The notes below the pieces were generated by a model. The model did no database searches, had not been told where the DNA came from, and worked only from the letters and a program-made list of their open reading frames with translations. A DNA stretch of 33,880 nucleotides, from the NCBI GenBank assembly GCA_017477845.1, contig JAFUTR010000001.1, positions 1 through 33,880 on the forward strand. The letters are read 5' to 3'. The translations under genes and the position numbers were made by a program. Below, piece after piece: positions 20,503 through 29,324 of the stretch; position 1 is the first letter of the stretch; every line of letters begins with the position of its first letter. Origin of the DNA: Bacilli bacterium. Lineage in GTDB: Bacteria > Bacillota_I > Bacilli_A > RF39 > UBA660.

Positions 20503-22002
20503 CTAATTATTTATTCTTTGATGACAAATTATATTCTTGTTTAATACTTCAAATTTGTATCCATTATTTTTTCCATATTTTATTATTTCTTCAATTGCTG
20601 AAGCAGTAGTTTGTTTAATATCATGCATTAAAATTACGTTTCCTCTTGATTTAGATAAATTTCTTGTTACATTAGATATTTCTTCACTTACTTTTCCATT
20701 AAAGCTCGCACTTTTTAATCCACCTGCATCTCCACTAGAAATATTCCAATCAAAATATACATAACCATTATCTTCTACTTCTTTTGCAAGTTGTGTCATA
20801 ATTCCAGATTTATATTTTCTACTTACTGTGTTAGATACTCCTCCAGGAAATCTCAATAAGTCTGATTTTTTACCTGTTATTCTTTCTACTCTGCTTGCTA
20901 TTTTATTCATATCAGTCCAAAATGCTTCACTAGACTTGTATATATTTGCATAGTCATGACTACTTGAGTGAAGTCCAATAACGTGACCTTCATCAAACTC
21001 TCTTTTAATTAATGAATCAGGTCCTGCTGCTGTTACAAAGAAAGTCGCTTTTACATCATATTTCTTTAATACATCAAGTATTTTTGGAGTGTAATATGAG
21101 TTTGGTCCATCATCAAATGTTAAATAGATTACTCCAGCACTTCCACAAGTTAGGTTACCAGTACTAACAGGTGTCACTTTCTTTTCACTTACAACTACTT
21201 TTCTTGTTTTTGTAGCAGTATTTCCTTTTGTATCACTAACTGTATAGGAAAGTTCGTATGTTCCAAGTTTTTTTGTATCGACACTTCCTGATACTGTAAC
21301 TTTAGAAGTTAAATCTTCATCACAATTATCACTTACTGTATACAAAGGATCTGTAAAAGTAGAGTTTAATACAACGTAGTAAGTGTCTCCTCCCTTTAAA
21401 GTAATAACAGGAGCTTCTTCATCTATTCTATTTAAAACTCTTTTAGAAACACCTTCATTTCCGCTTGAATCTTTAACTTTATAAATAACTTCTGTATCAA
21501 AAGTCTCTACATTTACTTTATCTGTTAAATCTCCATCATAATTATCTAAAGCTGTGTAGCCTTCTTCTACATATTCTTTTGCTGGACAGACACTTATTTC
21601 ATTTTCTCCAACAATAGTAATAACAGGTTCTTTAGTATCAACTACTTCAATGTCTCTTTCAACTGTAGAAGTAAACTTATTCTTTCTTATCTTATATTTT
21701 AAATGATAAACTCCAAGTTTATTCTCATCAACTTTTCCTTCAATCCAGCTCTTATCAGTAATATTTTTGCCCAAATAAGTAGCTTTTACTCCAGGATCTT
21801 TATATTTATCACCATATTCTACTTTAATATATTTATCTCCAATTAAAGTAATTTTAGGAACAAATAAAAAGTAAATAAGTAAAACAAGAAGTATTATAGA
21901 AAGTAAGATAACACCTATAATAGATACTTTTTTCAAATACTTTTTCTGTTTTCTTTCAACTTTTTTTATTTTTCTTTCAGTCTCTAATTCATCTTGTTCC
22001 AT
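20503..22002 (-). CDS. membrane-anchored polysaccharide deacetylase (NodB domain) with Ig-like repeats
   Basis: 499 residues: a charged cytoplasmic start, one membrane helix (about 26-48), then extracytoplasmic DUF5011/HYR-like Ig repeats (about 52-122, 126-192, 196-272). Each repeat has the GD.Y.DPG or EEGYTALDNYDGDLT pattern. A NodB carbohydrate esterase-4 domain follows. Metal and catalytic motifs are TFDDGP (Asp297, Asp298), HSSSHDY (His345, His349), RFPGG and LMHD (His460). PgdA-type enzymes of this design remove acetyl groups from peptidoglycan N-acetylglucosamine and protect against lysozyme. Other CE4 substrates are possible. It has its own promoter and is followed by the cohesin-like gene. 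Two extra cysteines in the repeats could form a disulfide. Confidence 0.9.
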   Translation of the reverse strand: MEQDELETERKIKKVERKQKKYLKKVSIIGVILLSIILLVLLIYFLFVPKITLIGDKYIKVEYGDKYKDPGVKATYLGKNITDKSWIEGKVDENKLGVYHLKYKIRKNKFTSTVERDIEVVDTKEPVITIVGENEISVCPAKEYVEEGYTALDNYDGDLTDKVNVETFDTEVIYKVKDSSGNEGVSKRVLNRIDEEAPVITLKGGDTYYVVLNSTFTDPLYTVSDNCDEDLTSKVTVSGSVDTKKLGTYELSYTVSDTKGNTATKTRKVVVSEKKVTPVSTGNLTCGSAGVIYLTFDDGPNSYYTPKILDVLKKYDVKATFFVTAAGPDSLIKREFDEGHVIGLHSSSHDYANIYKSSEAFWTDMNKIASRVERITGKKSDLLRFPGGVSNTVSRKYKSGIMTQLAKEVEDNGYVYFDWNISSGDAGGLKSASFNGKVSEEISNVTRNLSKSRGNVILMHDIKQTTASAIEEIIKYGKNNGYKFEVLNKNIICHQRINN

Positions 22003-22056: not shown

Positions 22057-22069
22057 TACAAATAGGACT
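22045..22069 (-). terminator. sigK terminator
   Basis: AGTCC, 9-nt loop, GGACT, then six T on the minus strand. The sigK stop codon overlaps the left arm. The stem is short (5 bp) but the T-run is good. Confidence 0.6.
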
Positions 22070-22760
22070 ATTCTTTGTTATTTTTTATGAATTCTCTCAG
22101 TATTTTCATAAGTGCTCTTTTCTCAATTCTTGATACATAACTTCTAGATATTTTATAATCTTTAGCAATTTCTTTCTGAGTCATCTCATCTTTATTAAAC
22201 AAACCATACCTCTTACTTATTATTTCCATTTCTCTTGGTGTTAATACTTTAAAATACTCTTTTAACAGTTTAACATTATCTTTTTCTGATATTTCATCTA
22301 TATAATCTGGTGCAGGTATCTTTAAAATATCTAAAATAGTTATTTCATTACCTTCTTTATCAAATCCAATAGATTCATTTATTGAAATATTTTTATTTGT
22401 TTTATTATTACTTCTGAAATACATTAGTATTTCATTTTCTATACATCTTGCACAGTACGTTGTAAGTTTAGTACCATGGCTCTTTTTAAAACTATCGACA
22501 CCTTTTATAAGTCCAATTGTCCCAATACTTATAAGATCATCTTGATCAACATTTTTATAGTCAAACTTCTTTACAATATGCGCGACAAGCCTTAAATTAT
22601 GCTCAATCAAACTATTTCTAGCATCATTATCACCATCTAACATTTTCTTTATCATTAGATTCTCTTCTTCCTCACTTAAAGGATCAAGAAAAACATTATT
22701 TGAATAACTACAAGTAAATAGAAATAAACTTTTAAGTTTTCTAATTAAATTAAAAAACAT
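22068..22760 (-). CDS. sigK: pro-sigma-K, late mother-cell sporulation sigma factor
   Basis: 230 residues. A hydrophobic pro-sequence (1-18) ends FTCS and is followed by YSNNVF, matching the SpoIVFB cleavage context of B. subtilis pro-sigma-K (S|YVKNNAF). Cleavage would fall between Ser18 and Tyr19. Region 2 is unmistakably sigma-K-like: IEHNLRLVAHIVKKF, DLISIGTIGLIKG and TYCARCIENEILMYFR. IGFDKEGNEITILD follows. Region 4 carries QKEIAKDYKISRSYVSRIEKRALMK. Sigma-E is less likely because it has a different pro-sequence and ERNLRLV-type region. The gene is intact, with no skin-type insertion. Its ribosome-binding site is AGGAGGT, and it is next to a small zinc-ribbon gene and spoIVFB. A CATATAAT box upstream resembles a sigma-E -10, but in this AT-rich DNA that is weak. 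Confidence 0.93.
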   Translation of the reverse strand: MFFNLIRKLKSLFLFTCSYSNNVFLDPLSEEEENLMIKKMLDGDNDARNSLIEHNLRLVAHIVKKFDYKNVDQDDLISIGTIGLIKGVDSFKKSHGTKLTTYCARCIENEILMYFRSNNKTNKNISINESIGFDKEGNEITILDILKIPAPDYIDEISEKDNVKLLKEYFKVLTPREMEIISKRYGLFNKDEMTQKEIAKDYKISRSYVSRIEKRALMKILREFIKNNKE

Positions 22761-22797
22761 ATAACCTCCTAAAAAATTATATGTTTATAAGTATTAT

Positions 22798-23013
22798 TTA
22801 ATTATTAATTAAATGGAAAAGTCCAAAAGATATTATAGCTACAAGTATTAAAATAATTAATACTATCAAAAAAGTACTACTTTCTTTTTTGTTTCCTTCT
22901 ACAACTGCTTCAACTACTTCTTCATCATTTTTAACAGGATTTCCACATCCTTTACAAAAAGCATCTCCACTATCTAATGTATTTCCACAAAATTCACATT
23001 TTCTTTTTCTCAT
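22798..23013 (-). CDS. small zinc-ribbon protein with one C-terminal membrane helix
   Basis: 71 residues. The N-terminal four-cysteine zinc ribbon CEFCGN...CKGCGNP (Cys6, Cys9, Cys20, Cys23) is followed by an acidic linker. One hydrophobic segment (about 47-67) ends the protein. Such zinc-ribbon tail-anchored proteins are common in Bacillota and of unknown role. It starts behind AAGGA, has a promoter, and lies between spoIVFB and sigK, so it may be co-transcribed with sigK. Function is not known; involvement in pro-sigma-K activation is only a guess from position. Confidence 0.75.
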   Translation of the reverse strand: MRKRKCEFCGNTLDSGDAFCKGCGNPVKNDEEVVEAVVEGNKKESSTFLIVLIILILVAIISFGLFHLINN

Positions 23014-23035: not shown

Positions 23036-23064
23036 ATAATATCATTATTAAAGTTTTTTTACAA
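23036..23064 (-). promoter_or_regulatory. promoter upstream of the zinc-ribbon gene and sigK
   Basis: TTGTAA (23059-23064, its last three bases are the spoIVFB stop codon), a 17-bp spacer and TATTAT (23036-23041), with TGA directly upstream of the -10 box. A near-perfect inverted repeat, TAATAAT-GAT-ATTATTA, covers the -10. Confidence 0.45.
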
Positions 23065-23796
23065 CTTATTAGAAAAATATTTCACCAAAATTTCTTTTTC
23101 ATTATAAATTTTATTATTAACAATAAATAAGTTATTTCTATACTTATACATATCTTTAATATTTCTAATTACTTTAGTTTTTCTAAATTTAAACTGGTAT
23201 AGATATCTTTCAAGTAAAAACTTATCAAATGAATAATTAATAAGTTTCAACTCATCAAATATTTTAAATAATAATAGAAATAAAGATATTATAATAATAA
23301 AAGAATAATAATTAAAATAACTATAAAAAAAAGAAAAAAGTAAAAATATAAATGATAAATAAATACATAAAGTTAAACTTTTTTTATAAGGAATAATTAG
23401 ATTAAGAAAACAAGATAATATTTTACTTCCATCAAGAGGAACTATTGGTAATAGATTAAAAAATAATAATAAATTACTAAATATTACTATATCTTTATCA
23501 AATCTAACTAAAAATAATGAAAGTATTATTTGAAATAGTGGTCCTGTGATAGTAACTAATAATTCTTGATATACTTTTCTATTTATATAATCATTAAATT
23601 TTATAATACCTCCAAGAGGATAGATATATATTTTATCTATTTTATATTTGAATAATAGTGCTGCTAAAAAGTGTCCAAATTCATGAAATATTATTAAACT
23701 CATATAAATTATTATTTTCTTAAAGTGACCTGTAAAAAAAGAAAGAAAAATAAACAAATACGTTAAAGAAGATATTTTAAATATATTCTTTATAAT
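23059..23796 (-). CDS. spoIVFB: SpoIVFB intramembrane metalloprotease, probably starting at ATT
   Basis: Site-2-protease (M50) that cuts pro-sigma-K in the mother-cell forespore membrane. The zinc site HEFGH (His38, Glu39, His42) lies in a membrane helix. It is followed by the conserved YPLGG and ELLVTITGPLFQ, and the third ligand motif NLLPIVPLDG (Asp122). Multiple hydrophobic segments and a cytoplasmic C-terminal domain follow, the expected SpoIVFB order. There is no ATG near the 5' end. The frame is open up to a TAG at 23797. ATT at 23794-23796 has GGAG 9 nt upstream and gives IIKNIFKISS before LTYLFIFLSFFTG, which restores the first helix. A TTG at 23757 has no ribosome-binding site and removes part of it. 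It overlaps the end of spoIVFA by 20 bp. Confidence 0.85.
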   Translation of the reverse strand: MIKNIFKISSLTYLFIFLSFFTGHFKKIIIYMSLIIFHEFGHFLAALLFKYKIDKIYIYPLGGIIKFNDYINRKVYQELLVTITGPLFQIILSLFLVRFDKDIVIFSNLLLFFNLLPIVPLDGSKILSCFLNLIIPYKKSLTLCIYLSFIFLLFSFFYSYFNYYSFIIIISLFLLLFKIFDELKLINYSFDKFLLERYLYQFKFRKTKVIRNIKDMYKYRNNLFIVNNKIYNEKEILVKYFSNKL

Positions 23797-24355
23797 CTAG
23801 TTCTTCTCCATTCTTCTTAAATACTATTATTAATTTATTATCGAGTACATTACCTACTATATCACCTTTTTTTACGTAATCATAAATATTTATATTTGAG
23901 TTAATTATATTGCAATACCAAATATTTACGTTATCTTCATCTTCCACAATTAAAACATTACCATATCCTTCTTTTTCTCCAATAAAGACTACTATCCCAT
24001 CTTTTAAGAAAGGGACTAAATAGTTATCATCAACAGTTAATATAACTCCGTCTTTATAGGAATTAGAGTCATTATACACTAAAGATTCTCCACTTACTAA
24101 AACATCTTCTTGAATGTCAACACTAGGAAATAAATTACCAAATAATGAAGTATATAAAGAGTTAATTTTAGCAAAGGAAAATGACTTATTAAAGACATGT
24201 TCATATATCAGTTTATCAAATCCATCTACTTTTTTTAAACATATCATAAATGTTAAAAAAAGAATAATACATATCATTATCTTAGTAACCAATCTCTTAA
24301 AAAAAATATTAATATTACTATCTTTAACTACTTTCTTCTTATTATATTTATTCAT
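23777..24355 (-). CDS. spoIVFA: SpoIVFA-like regulator of SpoIVFB
   Basis: 192 residues: a basic N-terminus, one membrane helix (about 23-40), then a degenerate M23/LytM-like domain. This has YKDGVILTV, DGIVVFIGEKEGYGNVLIVED, and VKKGDIVGNV. The metal-binding His residues of active M23 enzymes are missing. This matches SpoIVFA, which holds and stabilises SpoIVFB and is cut by SpoIVB or CtpB during engulfment signalling. The start is ATG 24353-24355; an overlapping GTG at 24364 with the mreD stop is possible. Neither has a clear ribosome-binding site, so translation probably depends on coupling. It sits between mreD and spoIVFB as in the B. subtilis region. Confidence 0.8.
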   Translation of the reverse strand: MNKYNKKKVVKDSNINIFFKRLVTKIMICIILFLTFMICLKKVDGFDKLIYEHVFNKSFSFAKINSLYTSLFGNLFPSVDIQEDVLVSGESLVYNDSNSYKDGVILTVDDNYLVPFLKDGIVVFIGEKEGYGNVLIVEDEDNVNIWYCNIINSNINIYDYVKKGDIVGNVLDNKLIIVFKKNGEELDYKEYI

Positions 24356-24360
24356 ATTAA

Positions 24361-24789
24361 TCACATTAATTTATACTGAAGTTTTTGTGATTTTAGAACC
24401 ATTCCTACTAAATAAATAATGATTAAATATAAATAGTTAATTACTAAACTAAATAAAACTTTAATAATTATAAAAGATATACTTAGTTTCTTAATAAAGT
24501 ATAAAAACAAATATAAAAATATATCATAAAAAGATAAAGATAGTAACAAAGTTATTAAACTATTTTTAATATTTCTATTACTTACATAATTAAAGAAATA
24601 ATAAATAGTTAAAAAGTAAAATAAATTATAGTAAAACATTCCATTAAAAATGCTGTAAATAAGTAGTAGAATTAATGATATTTTGATATTTTTTCTATAG
24701 TATAAAGAAAGAATAATAAATGTTATAAGAAACATAGAAGATATTGGAACTAAAAAATCAAGTATTAAAGAAATAATACCTAAAATCAT
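24361..24789 (-). CDS. mreD: rod-shape determining protein MreD
   Basis: A very hydrophobic 142-residue protein with about five membrane segments, shorter than the usual 160-175. It has the polytopic pattern of MreD and a position right behind mreC. MreD works with MreC and RodA/PBPs in lateral wall synthesis. Its ATG overlaps the mreC stop (ATGA), and its ribosome-binding site is AAGAGG inside mreC. Identification rests mainly on synteny and the hydropathy pattern, since MreD sequences are poorly conserved. Confidence 0.75.
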   Translation of the reverse strand: MILGIISLILDFLVPISSMFLITFIILSLYYRKNIKISLILLLIYSIFNGMFYYNLFYFLTIYYFFNYVSNRNIKNSLITLLLSLSFYDIFLYLFLYFIKKLSISFIIIKVLFSLVINYLYLIIIYLVGMVLKSQKLQYKLM

Positions 24790-25502
24790 TTTATATACCT
24801 CTTTAAGACTGATACAAATTTAATATTATTAATATCTTGACTTAATTTAACTTTAGCTGTTTTACCGACTCCTTTTAAATCTTTATCAAAACTTAAAATC
24901 TCACCAATTATTATTCCTTCTGGAAATATATCAGAAAGTCCACTAGTTAATACTTTATCTCCTATTTTTATATCATCACTATCATTAATTCCTTTTATTA
25001 TAAGTTCATTATTAACTGAATATAACACTTTATTATTATCATTTATTTTAACTGAAATAGAATCAATATCAGTAATTAATTTAACTGTCGATGTATTAAA
25101 AGAAGTATTTTTTATTTTACCTATTAAACCATTATCTCCCACTACTGCCATATTATCTCTAATTCCATCATTAAGCCCTTTATTGATAGTAAACTCAACA
25201 AACCAATAATTATTATTACGAAAAATTAAAGAAGCATTTATTCTTTTATAATCTTTCAAAGAATAATCAATTTCTAATAACCTTTTTAGTTCTCTATTCT
25301 CAGAGATTAATTCTTCGCTTGAATGTTCTATAATAAGCCCAGTTGTTGTAAATCTAGTCGGATAGTAAACCAAATCTTTTATTACTCCTCCAATATTTAA
25401 GTCATTTTTAAATTCAAAATATGAAAAAATAAGAGATAAAAAAATAAGCATCAAAATAAGTTTTTTCTTTGTTTTATTATCCCTCTTTTTCTTTTTTTTC
25501 AT
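24786..25502 (-). CDS. mreC: rod-shape determining protein MreC
   Basis: 238 residues: a Lys-rich cytoplasmic start, one membrane helix (about 12-30), a short coiled-coil (SSEELISENRELKRLLEID), then the beta-barrel periplasmic-type domain. That domain has NKGLNDGIRDNMAVVGDNGLIGKI and IKGINDSDDIKIGDKVLTSGLSDIFPEGI, typical of MreC. The start is ATG 25500-25502 behind AGGTGA. A GTG at 25511 overlaps the radC stop but is less likely. MreC links the wall-synthesis enzymes to the cytoskeleton. mreB is not in this window, although radC-mreC are directly adjacent, so the cytoskeletal gene has been lost from the block or moved. Confidence 0.88.
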   Translation of the reverse strand: MKKKKKRDNKTKKKLILMLIFLSLIFSYFEFKNDLNIGGVIKDLVYYPTRFTTTGLIIEHSSEELISENRELKRLLEIDYSLKDYKRINASLIFRNNNYWFVEFTINKGLNDGIRDNMAVVGDNGLIGKIKNTSFNTSTVKLITDIDSISVKINDNNKVLYSVNNELIIKGINDSDDIKIGDKVLTSGLSDIFPEGIIIGEILSFDKDLKGVGKTAKVKLSQDINNIKFVSVLKRYIK

Positions 25503-25507
25503 AAAAA

Positions 25508-26194
25508 TCACCTATTATTAATTTTCCCATTATCTTGAAAACTATAATAATTATTATTAGAAACAATAATGTGATCAATTATAGGTATTTTCTGAATGTT
25601 TCCTATTTCTACGAGTGCACTAGTAAAAGATATATCTTCTCTTGATGGTGTAACATCACCTGATGGATGATTATGAAGACAGACTATTGAAGATGCTGAA
25701 TACAAATAAGCATATTTAAATATTTCTCTTGGATGAGTTAAGCTTTTGTTCACTGTTCCAATAAACAATAGTTCTTTACCAACTAAATGCTGCTTATTGT
25801 TAAAATAAAGACAATAAAAAAGTTCTTGTTCTTTATCTCTAAACATGTATTTTGTATATTCATATATTTTTTTTGGATTATTAAAACAAATTTTCAAATT
25901 ACTGTCATCATCAACATATATTCTTTTAGATAATTCAAGCATTGCAACAATAACCATTGATTTTGATAGGCCCATTCCATTAATTAAAGAAAGTTTATTG
26001 ATAGTTGCATTTTTAATATTAGAAAGTGTTTTATACTCTTTCAAAATATTACTAGATAATTCTTTAACAGAAACATTTTTAGTACCACATCTTAATACTA
26101 TTGATAATAATTCTTCATTTGAAAGATTACTAGCGCCATATTTTAAAAGACGCTCTCTTGGTCTTTCTTCAAGAGGTATTTCTTTTATTAACAT
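25508..26194 (-). CDS. radC: RadC family protein (JAB/MPN domain)
   Basis: 228 residues. The N-terminal part has a helix-hairpin-helix-like region (RPRERLLKYGASNLSNEELL, NGMGLSKSM). The C-terminal JAMM metalloprotease-like motif is HNHPSGDVTPSREDI, with His174, His176 and Asp187. The biochemical role of RadC is not settled; the old DNA-repair name is historical. The start is ATG 26194 behind GGTGAT. Its stop is next to mreC, and the linkage radC-mre is conserved in Bacilli. It probably belongs to the radC-mreC-mreD-spoIVFA-spoIVFB operon with overlapping genes. Confidence 0.92.
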   Translation of the reverse strand: MLIKEIPLEERPRERLLKYGASNLSNEELLSIVLRCGTKNVSVKELSSNILKEYKTLSNIKNATINKLSLINGMGLSKSMVIVAMLELSKRIYVDDDSNLKICFNNPKKIYEYTKYMFRDKEQELFYCLYFNNKQHLVGKELLFIGTVNKSLTHPREIFKYAYLYSASSIVCLHNHPSGDVTPSREDISFTSALVEIGNIQKIPIIDHIIVSNNNYYSFQDNGKINNR

Positions 26195-26228
26195 TTTTAT
26201 CACCAATAATATTATTATTCAAAACTTT

Positions 26229-26660
26229 TTAATTTCCTAAAACAATCTCCTCATAATTAGATAAAATTACATCATTTATCGAAATTAGGTTCTCATCATC
26301 GTCAACTTCTGACAACAAAATGTCAAATTGTTCAAGATTACTCATAAACTCAATATTGTCTATTACTGTTGGTTTTATATAGCTTTCAATGTCTTGTTTT
26401 TTATAAATATCTTTTATTTTGGTTGCGTTGTTTAGCTTTGTAGTAATTCCTGCATAAACGTTATAAATACCATTTTCTTTTAAAACTAAATATTTACTTT
26501 CATCAACTTCAGGGTCATTATCAAAACTACCAATCTGAATTAGATAGGCGTTATACTCTGTAGCATCCAAATTCTCTTGATATTGTTTATAAACAGCCTC
26601 CGCAGAAATAAATCCTAGAACAATTGCAACAAGTAAAAGAATAAAATAATTACTTTTCAT
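26229..26660 (-). CDS. SPOR-like single-pass membrane protein, SpoIIB-like by position
   Basis: 143 residues. An N-terminal membrane segment (about 5-21) is followed by a SPOR-type region: AYLIQIGSFDNDPEVDESK and ENGIYNVYAGIT, the start and end strands expected for that fold. SPOR domains bind denuded glycan at division sites. In B. subtilis SpoIIB, a membrane-anchored SPOR protein acting in engulfment septal localisation, is encoded just upstream of maf-radC-mre. Here the position next to radC is the same. The protein is small and lacks the long linker of SpoIIB, so homology is an inference. It starts at ATG 26660 behind GGTGAT, and I see no terminator between it and radC. Confidence 0.6.
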   Translation of the reverse strand: MKSNYFILLLVAIVLGFISAEAVYKQYQENLDATEYNAYLIQIGSFDNDPEVDESKYLVLKENGIYNVYAGITTKLNNATKIKDIYKKQDIESYIKPTVIDNIEFMSNLEQFDILLSEVDDDENLISINDVILSNYEEIVLGN

Positions 26661-26707
26661 ATTATCACCAATAATAAGATATCAGATGGAAGAAGAAAAA
26701 AATGTCG

Positions 26708-26731
26708 AAAAAAAAGAAAGATTTCTCTTTC
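26708..26731 (-). terminator. terminator of the desulfurase-thioredoxin-CcdA unit
   Basis: GAAAGA (26726-26731 on the minus strand), loop GAAA, TCTTTC (26716-26721), then eight T. The GNRA-type loop makes this a strong terminator. Confidence 0.85.
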
Positions 26732-26732
26732 C

Positions 26733-27935
26733 TTAAAAATTCAACATCAACCATTCTGGTTTTAAAATTAATAAAAGTCCTACAAGAAGCATAATTATAC
26801 CAGATACTATTTTAGAATATTTTCCATACTTAGTACTTGTTGTACTCAATTCTAAAGTTGATACTGCAATAATAAATACTATCATATCATCAATCATATA
26901 AAATAATGTATATAAAAGCAAATATAAAATCTTTGCAATACCACTTACATTATTAACAGCCATAATCTCTGCAAAAGTAGCTGGGAAAACGCTTGAACAA
27001 GCAAGTTCAACTGCATTTACTGATATTGCTAGAATAACTACTCCACCTAATGCTAAGAAAATATTTTTCTCAGTTGTAAACTTCTTAATCCTATTAAATA
27101 TCTTCTTTCTTTTCTTCTCATCAACAACATGGCATCCAGCGTCTTCTTTTCTTTCTTTAAAGAATTTATAAACATTATAGATACCTACTAGTAGTGCAAC
27201 TACACCGATAATAGTTCTAATAACAGGAACTGAAATAAATGATAAGATATTAGTAATTCCTAGCATAAATAAGAAATACATTAAAGCTGAAGTAAATAAG
27301 AAAGTAAGTCCAATTATTAACATTTTCTTTCTATCATTCATACCAATTAACATATTTATCAAAAATAACAAAACCCACATTGCACATGGATTAAATCCAT
27401 CGATAAATCCTAGAATAATTGCTACTAATGATATTGATACATCTCTTTTATCAATTGTACCCAAAAGTGGTATATCTTCTTTATACTTGTCAGCTAGACT
27501 TTCTTCTTCAGTAATAATTTCAAGATACTCCTTTATCTTAGTTTCTATCTTTTTTCCAATGGCATCATTATATCCAAGATAAGTTTCTTCACCAATTACT
27601 GTATAAGGAACAGCAGCACTAACTTGATCTTTCATTAGTGTCTTAGCCACATACATATAGTTAAGATTATTTTGATCATACCATGTTTCGTAATCATAAA
27701 AATTAATCTTGTCTTTATATATATCTTTCAATAATTCAATAAACTTTTCTTCTTCTTTACAATGGGGACATCCTTCTCCACGAAAGAAATAAAAATTAAT
27801 CTTATCTTCTTCTATTTCTTTACCAAGTATTACTGCTAATTTATCGTTATAAGAGTTTGATATTGCATTAACAATTAAAGGAGATAGCAATAAAAGAAGA
27901 AGAAAGATATAGAATACTTTTCTACTTTTCTTCAT
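26733..27935 (-). CDS. CcdA/DsbD-like thiol-electron transporter with N-terminal CxxC domain
   Basis: 400 residues. A signal-type hydrophobic start (about 7-24) is followed by a small thioredoxin/glutaredoxin-like domain with FRGEGCPHCKEEEKF (Cys56, Cys59). A multi-span membrane domain follows, with DGFNPCAMWVL and ELACSSVFPATFAE, the two Cys that shuttle electrons in CcdA/DsbD. The domain order (CxxC domain outside, then the membrane domain) suggests that electrons are passed from cytoplasm to an extracytoplasmic thiol. The start is the ATG at 27933-27935, spaced properly from AAGGG; the ATG at 27944 overlaps it too closely. It overlaps the thioredoxin gene upstream. A strong terminator follows immediately. 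Confidence 0.85.
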   Translation of the reverse strand: MKKSRKVFYIFLLLLLLSPLIVNAISNSYNDKLAVILGKEIEEDKINFYFFRGEGCPHCKEEEKFIELLKDIYKDKINFYDYETWYDQNNLNYMYVAKTLMKDQVSAAVPYTVIGEETYLGYNDAIGKKIETKIKEYLEIITEEESLADKYKEDIPLLGTIDKRDVSISLVAIILGFIDGFNPCAMWVLLFLINMLIGMNDRKKMLIIGLTFLFTSALMYFLFMLGITNILSFISVPVIRTIIGVVALLVGIYNVYKFFKERKEDAGCHVVDEKKRKKIFNRIKKFTTEKNIFLALGGVVILAISVNAVELACSSVFPATFAEIMAVNNVSGIAKILYLLLYTLFYMIDDMIVFIIAVSTLELSTTSTKYGKYSKIVSGIIMLLVGLLLILKPEWLMLNF

Positions 27936-28197
27936 TAAAAACATCCCTTATTTCTTTTTCTAATTCTTCTTGTTTTTTCTCACCAATTATTCTTTTAATT
28001 TCTTTATCATCATCATCTAAAAAAATAATAACTGGTAAAATATTTCCAACATTATATGGTTTTGCTTCCTCTTCATTAAAATCTAAATCGTAATCGATAA
28101 ACTCGATATTAGGAAAGTTTTTCTTAACATCTTTATAATATTTATTAGTAATAATACAAGCAGGACACCATATAGCACTAATCTTAACTATTTTCAT
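27922..28197 (-). CDS. small thioredoxin-like protein
   Basis: 91 residues. The redox motif is AIWCPACII (Cys11, Cys14), close to the N-terminus, then IEFIDYDLD and a cis-Pro region LPVIIFLDDDD. It has no signal peptide, so it acts in the cytoplasm and is a good candidate electron donor for the CcdA-like transporter next door. It overlaps the cysteine desulfurase stop by 4 bp (ATGA) and the transporter gene downstream. It is shorter than classical thioredoxin (about 105 residues) and lacks its full N-terminal strand and helix. Confidence 0.85.
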   Translation of the reverse strand: MKIVKISAIWCPACIITNKYYKDVKKNFPNIEFIDYDLDFNEEEAKPYNVGNILPVIIFLDDDDKEIKRIIGEKKQEELEKEIRDVFNEEK

Positions 28198-29324
28198 CTA
28201 AGATCCACAAGCTTTCTGTAGCATTTATCAAATGCATCCATAAATAAATCTAGTTCTTCTTTTGTTGTAACATAAGAAATACTAATTCTTACACTTGATA
28301 AGGCACGGGCTTCATCATGAGTTAAAGCATAAACAGCCTTAGACATTTCTCCACCTTTAGAACATGCAGTCTGAGTAGAAATATAAACATCATACTCTTC
28401 AAGTGCATGCTGAAGTGTTTCAGGTTTTACCCCTAATACACTGATATTTAGAATTTGTGGTATTGAATAAGAATTACTATTTATTTTAACTTTATCATAT
28501 TTACTTAATCTATCTTTTAAATAACTATTATACTCTTCTATTTTTTTAATATTATTATCAAGATTTTCTGTAGCAAGACGTAATGCTTTAGATAAAGAAA
28601 CAATCAAAGGAAGTTGTGGAGTTCCACTTCTAAATATAGTAGTACTCTTTCCTCCATGAATTAGTGGCTCTAATTCTATTTTTTCTTTTTTAATTAAGCC
28701 CCCAATTCCTTTAATTCCAAATATTTTATGTGCAGAAAAAGATACTAGATCAACATTTTCTAGTGATACTTTTTCCTTACCAATACTTTGAGTCATATCC
28801 ACATGGAAAAAACATTTTGGATGTTTCTTTACTATTTTAGCAATTTCTTCGATAGGTTGTCTTATACCTATTTCACTATTAACACTGCAAATTGTTACAA
28901 GAATCGTATCATCTCGAATTAATTTTTCTAATGAATCAAGTTTAACAATACCAAATTCATCAGTTTCTACAAAATCAACTTCAAAATCTTGATATCTTTG
29001 TAAATAGCCAATTGGACCATAAATAGAAGAATGCTCAAATTCTGTAGTAATAATATGTTTACCACGAGTTTTATATCTATCTGCAATTCCTTTTATAGCC
29101 ATATTATTTGATTCACTTGAACCACTTGTATAAATAACTTCACTACTCTTAACTCCTAGAATATCAGCGATTTGTTTAGTCGAAGCATTAATAAGTTCAT
29201 TTGCCTTAACACCTAATTTATGTAGAGAATTAGGATTTGCAAAATAATCTATACTAGCTTTATTAAATGATTCTAAAACCTCTTTAGAAGTTGGTGTTGT
29301 TGCTGAATAATCTAAATATACCAT
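28194..29324 (-). CDS. cysteine desulfurase (NifS/IscS class)
   Basis: A PLP-dependent class V aminotransferase-fold enzyme of 376 residues. It transfers sulfur from cysteine to an enzyme Cys and releases alanine. The start MVYLDYSATTPTS, the PLP loop YTSGSSESNNMAIKG and HVDMTQSIGK are typical. The PLP Lys is in SFSAHKIFGIKG, and the active-site Cys is in TQTACSKGGEM. This short Cys loop fits the IscS/NifS (group I) type. It is co-transcribed with a thioredoxin and a CcdA-type transporter, but no IscU, SufU or MnmA is in view, so the sulfur acceptor is unknown. Its ribosome-binding site is AGGTGAT. Confidence 0.92.
   Translation of the reverse strand: MVYLDYSATTPTSKEVLESFNKASIDYFANPNSLHKLGVKANELINASTKQIADILGVKSSEVIYTSGSSESNNMAIKGIADRYKTRGKHIITTEFEHSSIYGPIGYLQRYQDFEVDFVETDEFGIVKLDSLEKLIRDDTILVTICSVNSEIGIRQPIEEIAKIVKKHPKCFFHVDMTQSIGKEKVSLENVDLVSFSAHKIFGIKGIGGLIKKEKIELEPLIHGGKSTTIFRSGTPQLPLIVSLSKALRLATENLDNNIKKIEEYNSYLKDRLSKYDKVKINSNSYSIPQILNISVLGVKPETLQHALEEYDVYISTQTACSKGGEMSKAVYALTHDEARALSSVRISISYVTTKEELDLFMDAFDKCYRKLVDLR

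Follow-up and report, generated by a model that had tools for sequence, protein, structure and literature searches.

The stretch of DNA analysed here, referred to as the window, covers positions 1 to 33,880 of contig JAFUTR010000001.1 (GenBank assembly GCA_017477845.1) and belongs to a Bacilli bacterium of the RF39/UBA660 lineage whose genome amounts to 1.56 Mb in 61 contigs and is 96% complete. The organism is a small inhabitant of the gut that is represented by metagenomes alone. Encoded on its minus strand, at 26229–26660, is a bitopic membrane protein of 143 residues with a SPOR-type domain. In all likelihood it is a reduced SpoIIB-type sporulation protein that acts in engulfment by the route proposed below. 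It is classified here as SpoIIB-type, that is, as a positional orthologue rather than a proven SpoIIB.

The gene heads a minus-strand series that continues with radC, mreC, mreD, an M23/SpoIVFA gene, an M50/SpoIVFB gene, a zinc-ribbon gene, and sigK. The reading frames and the order of the first six genes agree with an earlier prediction made from the sequence of the window alone. Because these six are separated, in turn, by 22 bases, three 4-base overlaps, and 19 bases, they are read as one operon. The locus is condensed, as the original prediction had also maintained: maf, mreB, minC, and minD are absent from it, and of these MreB was also sought genome-wide.

Identity and Fold of the SPOR Domain

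The protein had been expected to escape recognition as SpoIIB from its own sequence, and it does. Its SPOR character emerges from two alignments, one of 32 homologues from relatives (the family alignment) and the other class-wide with 30 members. Pfam SPOR is the commonest match in the family alignment, with 16 of the 32 members matching at E-values of up to 1 (best 1.7e-05), and it matches 17 of the 30 class-wide members (best 1e-09). When the family profile was compared with the sequences of the Protein Data Bank (PDB), the top match was the SPOR domain of CwlC (1x60, E 0.0072). Searching the whole of the organism's own genome with the Pfam SPOR profile gave no match, hence no other SPOR-profile protein that might represent a separate, clear spoIIB.

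The AlphaFold (AF2) model of the protein has a mean predicted local distance difference test score of 91. It consists of a transmembrane helix from residues 4 to 32, a reduced SPOR domain from about 38 to 98, and two C-terminal helices formed by residues 103–118 and 122–139. Within the SPOR domain there are four strands (38–46, 58–62, 65–73, and 94–98) and one helix (76–88), which together follow the β-α-β-β-α-β topology of PF05036 except that the first helix is modelled as a loop. A Foldseek search with the model ranked the CwlC SPOR domain (1x60) first in the PDB with a probability of 1.00 and an E-value of 0.013, and SPOR proteins likewise ranked on top in the viral library. The predicted structure thus has the SPOR fold that had been proposed for it. 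In the model of a relative from another family of the class (f11), the SPOR fold is complete, including the first helix, and is followed by C-terminal helices as well.

SpoIIB of Bacillus crosses the membrane once and carries its SPOR domain outside the cytoplasm. The same pairing of one transmembrane helix with a SPOR domain, here predicted to face outside the membrane, is observed in the 143-residue protein from the family-level Pfam matches, the AF2 model, and the Foldseek result. In RlpA, the denuded glycan is contacted by Q270 and F274 of the first strand (PMC6895207). These residues correspond to Gln 42 and Phe 46 of the 143-residue protein. Gln 42 is retained in 28 of the 32 family members and 28 of the 30 class-wide members, and position 46 is a tyrosine or a phenylalanine in all 32 members of the family.

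A Spo0A Box Upstream of the Gene

Alignment of the upstream regions revealed the motif TTCGACA, the reverse complement of TGTCGAA, the canonical Spo0A box consensus. In the window it occupies 26703–26709 of the minus strand, where the plus strand reads TGTCGAA, and stands 49 bases ahead of the ATG of the SPOR gene; just one other exact copy exists in the entire 33.9 kb. An exact box is found within 120 bases upstream in 22 of the 32 family members, mostly at -49 to -51 or else, closer by roughly one turn of the helix, at -39/-40, and near versions occupy the same place in most of the others. Among 174 control genes taken from these loci there is one exact copy, and shuffled upstream regions gave a mean of 0.23 of 32 with a maximum of 3. 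Five of seven further loci that were not used initially have the box, and one of the two without it belongs to G144, a genome without Spo0A. The organism's own spo0A gene is preceded by the same box, 90 bases upstream. Judging from its sequence, the conserved box at -49 predicts expression of the SPOR gene at the onset of sporulation.

The main alternative is that TTCGACA is the -35 element of a sigma-A promoter, in which case it would carry no information on sporulation and might belong to a housekeeping gene. The motif is indeed similar to TTGACA, and downstream of it lies a stretch that is rich in A+T and -10-like. Scanning for consensus promoters gave no useful signal, with 45 found against 53.6 expected. 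This explanation is nevertheless unlikely, given that the C of TTCGACA is conserved across genera, that the control genes are nearly devoid of the motif, that spo0A itself bears it, and that G144, which is without Spo0A, has no exact copy.

The box was encountered in front of other genes as well. A second, stand-alone SPOR protein is encoded away from radC in G032 (locus L043, 5579–6064), as is the copy found in G089 (L189, 6765–7247), and both genes have TTCGACA at -49. Exact Spo0A-type boxes also lie 54–77 bases upstream of unnamed membrane-protein genes (L059, 15307–15332; L061, 11339), which are thus possible further Spo0A targets.

Association with Sporulation Genes

Presence and absence were counted across 296 genomes sampled from the class, of which 55 match the family profile, 101 have Spo0A, 94 have SpoIVFB, and 52 have SpoIIP. 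Upon inspection, the profile match in G253 proved to be an unrelated protein, which leaves 54 carriers; an apparent homologue in G030 was another false positive, namely cysteinyl-tRNA synthetase. Spo0A accompanies 54 of the 55 profile matches and SpoIVFB 53, and outside the organism's own family both are present in every case (26/26 each). The Fisher values for the association are tiny, with the proviso that related genomes are not independent. The gene is thus restricted to sporulating lineages, and losses are seen in genomes without SpoIIP. The genome to which the window belongs encodes Spo0A and, as candidate partners of the SPOR protein, SpoIIP and SpoIID-domain proteins. RF39 has been reported to keep spoIIP and is a predicted spore former (PMC10868615).

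The losses of the SPOR gene are more telling than the counts. In G059, which is without SpoIIP, radC, mreC, and mreD are kept, and the SPOR gene, spoIVFA, and spoIVFB have been lost together. Four other genomes (G212, G116, G218, and G016) keep radC and have neither the SPOR gene nor SpoIIP. When mapped on a RadC tree, the absence of the SPOR gene from the seven genomes that have radC without it requires about six changes, of which well-supported branches force at least two. The locus of G144 (L190, 2236–5008) is a decay intermediate: SPOR, radC, mreC, and mreD are intact, spoIVFA is gone, spoIVFB is a stub, and the SpoIIP match in this genome carries one in-frame stop. Five other SPOR-negative genomes are also without radC, and in these the SPOR gene may therefore sit in an assembly gap.

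These patterns bear on the proposal that the protein serves division or elongation in general, as an FtsN/DedD-like factor working with MreC and MreD in vegetative cells, and is encoded near sporulation genes by chance. Like FtsN, DedD, and DamX, it combines a transmembrane segment with a SPOR domain on the far side of the membrane (periplasmic in the latter proteins), and its gene shares an operon with mreC and mreD. An FtsN profile gives weak matches in 7 of the 30 class-wide members (best 6.9e-05), probably to the SPOR domain itself, and the protein occurs in lineages in which SpoIIP is undetectable. The genomic context and phyletic distribution of the slot protein are, however, linked to sporulation rather than to division. 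Three families (f3, f5, and f16) have lost the mre and min genes and kept SPOR-radC-spoIVFA-spoIVFB, and G059 kept mreC and mreD and lost the SPOR gene with spoIVFA and spoIVFB. Moreover, Spo0A is found with nearly all of the profile matches even though it is missing from 195 of the 296 genomes, and the gene lies behind a Spo0A box. A general division role is thus quite improbable.

The spoIIB Position in Relatives

The order in Bacillus is folC-(comC)-spoIIB-maf, and spoIIB is poorly conserved in sequence (PMC7232415); also in Bacillus, the order maf-radC-mreBCD-minCD has been described (PMC4474612). Most genomes of the organism's own family have the SPOR gene followed by radC, mreC, mreD, and the M23 and M50 genes, and nearly all of the carriers inspected have the SPOR gene immediately ahead of radC. 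The same slot is filled in seven further families of the class, eight in total. Outside the organism's own family, proteins with Pfam SPOR matches are encoded directly upstream of radC in f8, f11, f13, and f19, and in f8 the gene directly upstream of the SPOR gene is folC, as recognised by eye. The SPOR-like membrane protein hence stands where the original prediction had placed it. Intermediate states, for which a comparison of synteny had been suggested, exist: locus L122 (f13) reads SPOR-radC-mreC-mreD-minC-minD-spoIVFA-spoIVFB, where minC was identified by visual inspection of its sequence; the same order, with minD detected, is present in L131 and L133. Both minC and minD occur in f13, and minD in f19; maf and mreB were seen in none of the relatives' SPOR loci inspected. 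Since the order recurs in nearly all relatives, it is not due to chance, and since the loci of f3, f5, f8, f11, f13, f16, and f19 all keep the SPOR gene by radC, it is the slot itself, and not the family alone, that is conserved. In two relatives the operon is split by insertions of about 5 kb, between the SPOR gene and radC in G002 (L044, 7438–12988) and between mreD and spoIVFA in G017 (L056, 1956–6916).

The slot proteins of the eight families are recognisably homologous, each with a transmembrane segment, a SPOR domain, and C-terminal helices, and their cross-family identity is 15–26%. A phylum sample in which no Bacillus chromosome was reachable, searched with the class-wide alignment, returned matches only from the same class, and no match was obtained when plasmids were searched with the f11 protein. 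That an unrelated SPOR gene moved independently into the slot, to yield a sporulation protein that acts like SpoIIB and is not its orthologue, is very improbable: domain layout and sequence do diverge strongly between families, and the Bacillus sequence lies outside the comparison, but eight families fill the slot with homologous proteins, both flanks (folC and radC) agree with the published Bacillus order, and independent insertion into one slot is less economical.

Discussion

Several observations weigh against the assignment of the 143-residue protein as SpoIIB-type. Searched on its own, the sequence is recognised by none of the SPOR and SpoIIB profiles in the libraries, and the model has a loop in place of the first SPOR helix, with the four strands and the second helix present. 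The protein lacks a counterpart to the long cytoplasmic part of SpoIIB from B. subtilis. The box overlaps a possible -35 region, and in the other families it is not enriched (1/21). One genome, G198, has Spo0A, SpoIIP, and SpoIVFB with no SPOR gene detected, and another, G028, has sporulation genes and radC with no SPOR gene beside the latter. Conversely, f3, f5, f8, and f16 have the SPOR protein, and SpoIIP is undetected in them. The locus of G198 is split between contigs, with radC-mreC-mreD on one (L184) and spoIVFA-spoIVFB on the other (L176). SpoIIB is dispensable and patchy even among spore formers (PMC7924749).

With respect to the cytoplasmic region, only about three to five residues precede the transmembrane helix of the 143-residue protein. 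The corresponding region of B. subtilis SpoIIB is long and is not known to be required. The short N-terminus therefore weakens the notion of a typical SpoIIB, not that of a protein working like SpoIIB, and hence the term SpoIIB-type is employed here. The idea of a minimal SpoIIB, as originally put forward, is supported with regard to the slot and the SPOR fold, and the Spo0A box and the loss in common with spoIVFA and spoIVFB add evidence beyond that of the original prediction.

In Bacillus, SpoIID, SpoIIM, and SpoIIP can be targeted to the septum by SpoIIB-dependent and SpoIVFA-dependent pathways (PMC3533761). By analogy, the following scheme can be envisaged. Under starvation, phosphorylated Spo0A would switch on the SPOR gene via the box at -49. 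The single N-terminal transmembrane helix is predicted to anchor the protein in the septal membrane, with the SPOR domain and the small helical C-terminal extension outside. As in known SPOR domains, that of the 143-residue protein may bind glycan strands stripped of their stem peptides, in this case at the polar septum. Once bound, it would help to concentrate the wall-remodelling machinery of SpoIID, SpoIIP, and SpoIIM, by which the septum is thinned and engulfment proceeds; SpoIVFA, encoded in the same cluster, would act in parallel.

In comparison with known systems, the protein resembles the SpoIIB proteins of B. subtilis and B. anthracis (BA4688) in its single transmembrane segment and SPOR domain, its place at the head of a radC-mre-min-spoIVF cluster, and its poorly conserved sequence. 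It differs in being much shorter, in the loss of the cytoplasmic region and of the first SPOR helix, in its two-helix C-terminal piece, and in the absence of maf from the locus, whereas spoIIB of Bacillus lies between folC and maf. SpoIIB orthologues have been predicted by Pfam architecture in Turicibacter and Erysipelotrichaceae bacterium I46 (PMC7924749). These are probably of the same kind as those of the f11, f13, and f19 loci (f11 being Turicibacter-like by inference); the modelled f11 relative, however, has a complete SPOR domain, and the window protein escapes the Pfam-architecture method. The CwlC SPOR domain, the best match by both profile and fold, shares the Gln-x-Gly-x-Phe/Tyr motif in its first strand. 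CwlC itself is a spore-release amidase with an enzymatic domain, whereas the 143-residue protein is membrane-anchored and without one.

Neighbouring Genes

Matches to Pfam for the RadC, MreC, M23, and M50 proteins of the window all exceed the cut-offs, and none was obtained for the mreD candidate or the SPOR protein. All of the following genes of the series lie on the minus strand. The radC gene (25508–26206) matches PF04002 at 4.7e-41 and NF000642 above its cut-off, and mreC (24786–25511) matches PF04085 at 3.2e-36 and TIGR00219 above its cut-off. The candidate mreD (24361–24789) encodes a hydrophobic protein; its assignment is based on position together with a family profile that is conserved among relatives. 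Both mreC and mreD are retained (24361–25511), yet no MreB turned up genome-wide: the sole profile match lies inside a 618-residue frame and, judged by the length of that frame, is a DnaK-type protein. The SpoIVFA-type protein (23777–24364) has a transmembrane segment and an M23/LytM domain (PF01551, 2.3e-10), and its gene adjoins the M50 gene in relatives. The SpoIVFB-type M50 intramembrane protease (23059–23757) matches PF02163 at 1.1e-17; His 25, Glu 26, and His 29 of its HExxH motif are invariant in 20 relatives, as are Asn 101 and Pro 107 to Gly 110 (N...PLDG).

SigK is the known substrate of SpoIVFB. Protease and substrate are neighbours here, with one zinc-ribbon gene between them (22068–23013), an arrangement that is conserved in the genus; in those of the family's other genera that were inspected, sigK was not seen beside spoIVFB. 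The sigK gene (22068–22760) encodes a full pro-sequence; its product scores 298.1 bits against the NF004471 cut-off of 252 and lies just below that of TIGR02846 (288.1 versus 298.65). The N-terminal pro-region has an SY step conserved within the genus, and a SYSNN stretch is conserved as well. Directly downstream of sigK, at 20503–22002, is a polysaccharide deacetylase with three Ig-like repeats, likewise conserved in the genus, which is possibly a sporulation-time wall enzyme. The upstream side of the operon (26733–29324), also conserved in the genus, encodes a thioredoxin-like/membrane fusion protein, a thioredoxin, and a NifS-type cysteine desulfurase.

Implications

The idea of SpoIIB in this class is not wholly new, since Turicibacter and Erysipelotrichaceae I46 have already been credited with it (PMC7924749). 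What is new is the reduced form missed by profiles in the RF39-like family, the constant synteny, the loss in common with spoIVFAB, and the Spo0A box. Published surveys count SpoIIB as absent from numerous spore formers and restate an earlier suggestion of its late addition to engulfment (PMC7924749); a survey covering RF39 makes no mention of it (PMC10868615). A slot protein found in eight families, lost with sporulation, and encoded behind a Spo0A box argues for old age, and for some SpoIIB absences being failures of detection. A broader proposal, to which we give an even chance, is that SpoIIB is an ancestral engulfment component common to Bacillus and the Erysipelotrichia/RF39-type lineages, under direct Spo0A control in the latter, and not a late Bacillus addition. 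It would have gone unseen because it has eroded to a 143-residue remnant of a transmembrane helix and a four-stranded SPOR domain, and one minimal locus would then hold both known routes for targeting SpoIID, SpoIIM, and SpoIIP (SpoIIB and SpoIVFA) together with SpoIVFB and SigK. The slot gene provides a concrete marker of sporulation potential in uncultured gut Bacilli, and the 143-residue protein is a naturally minimal SPOR protein, for which cultured relatives would allow a role in engulfment to be tested.

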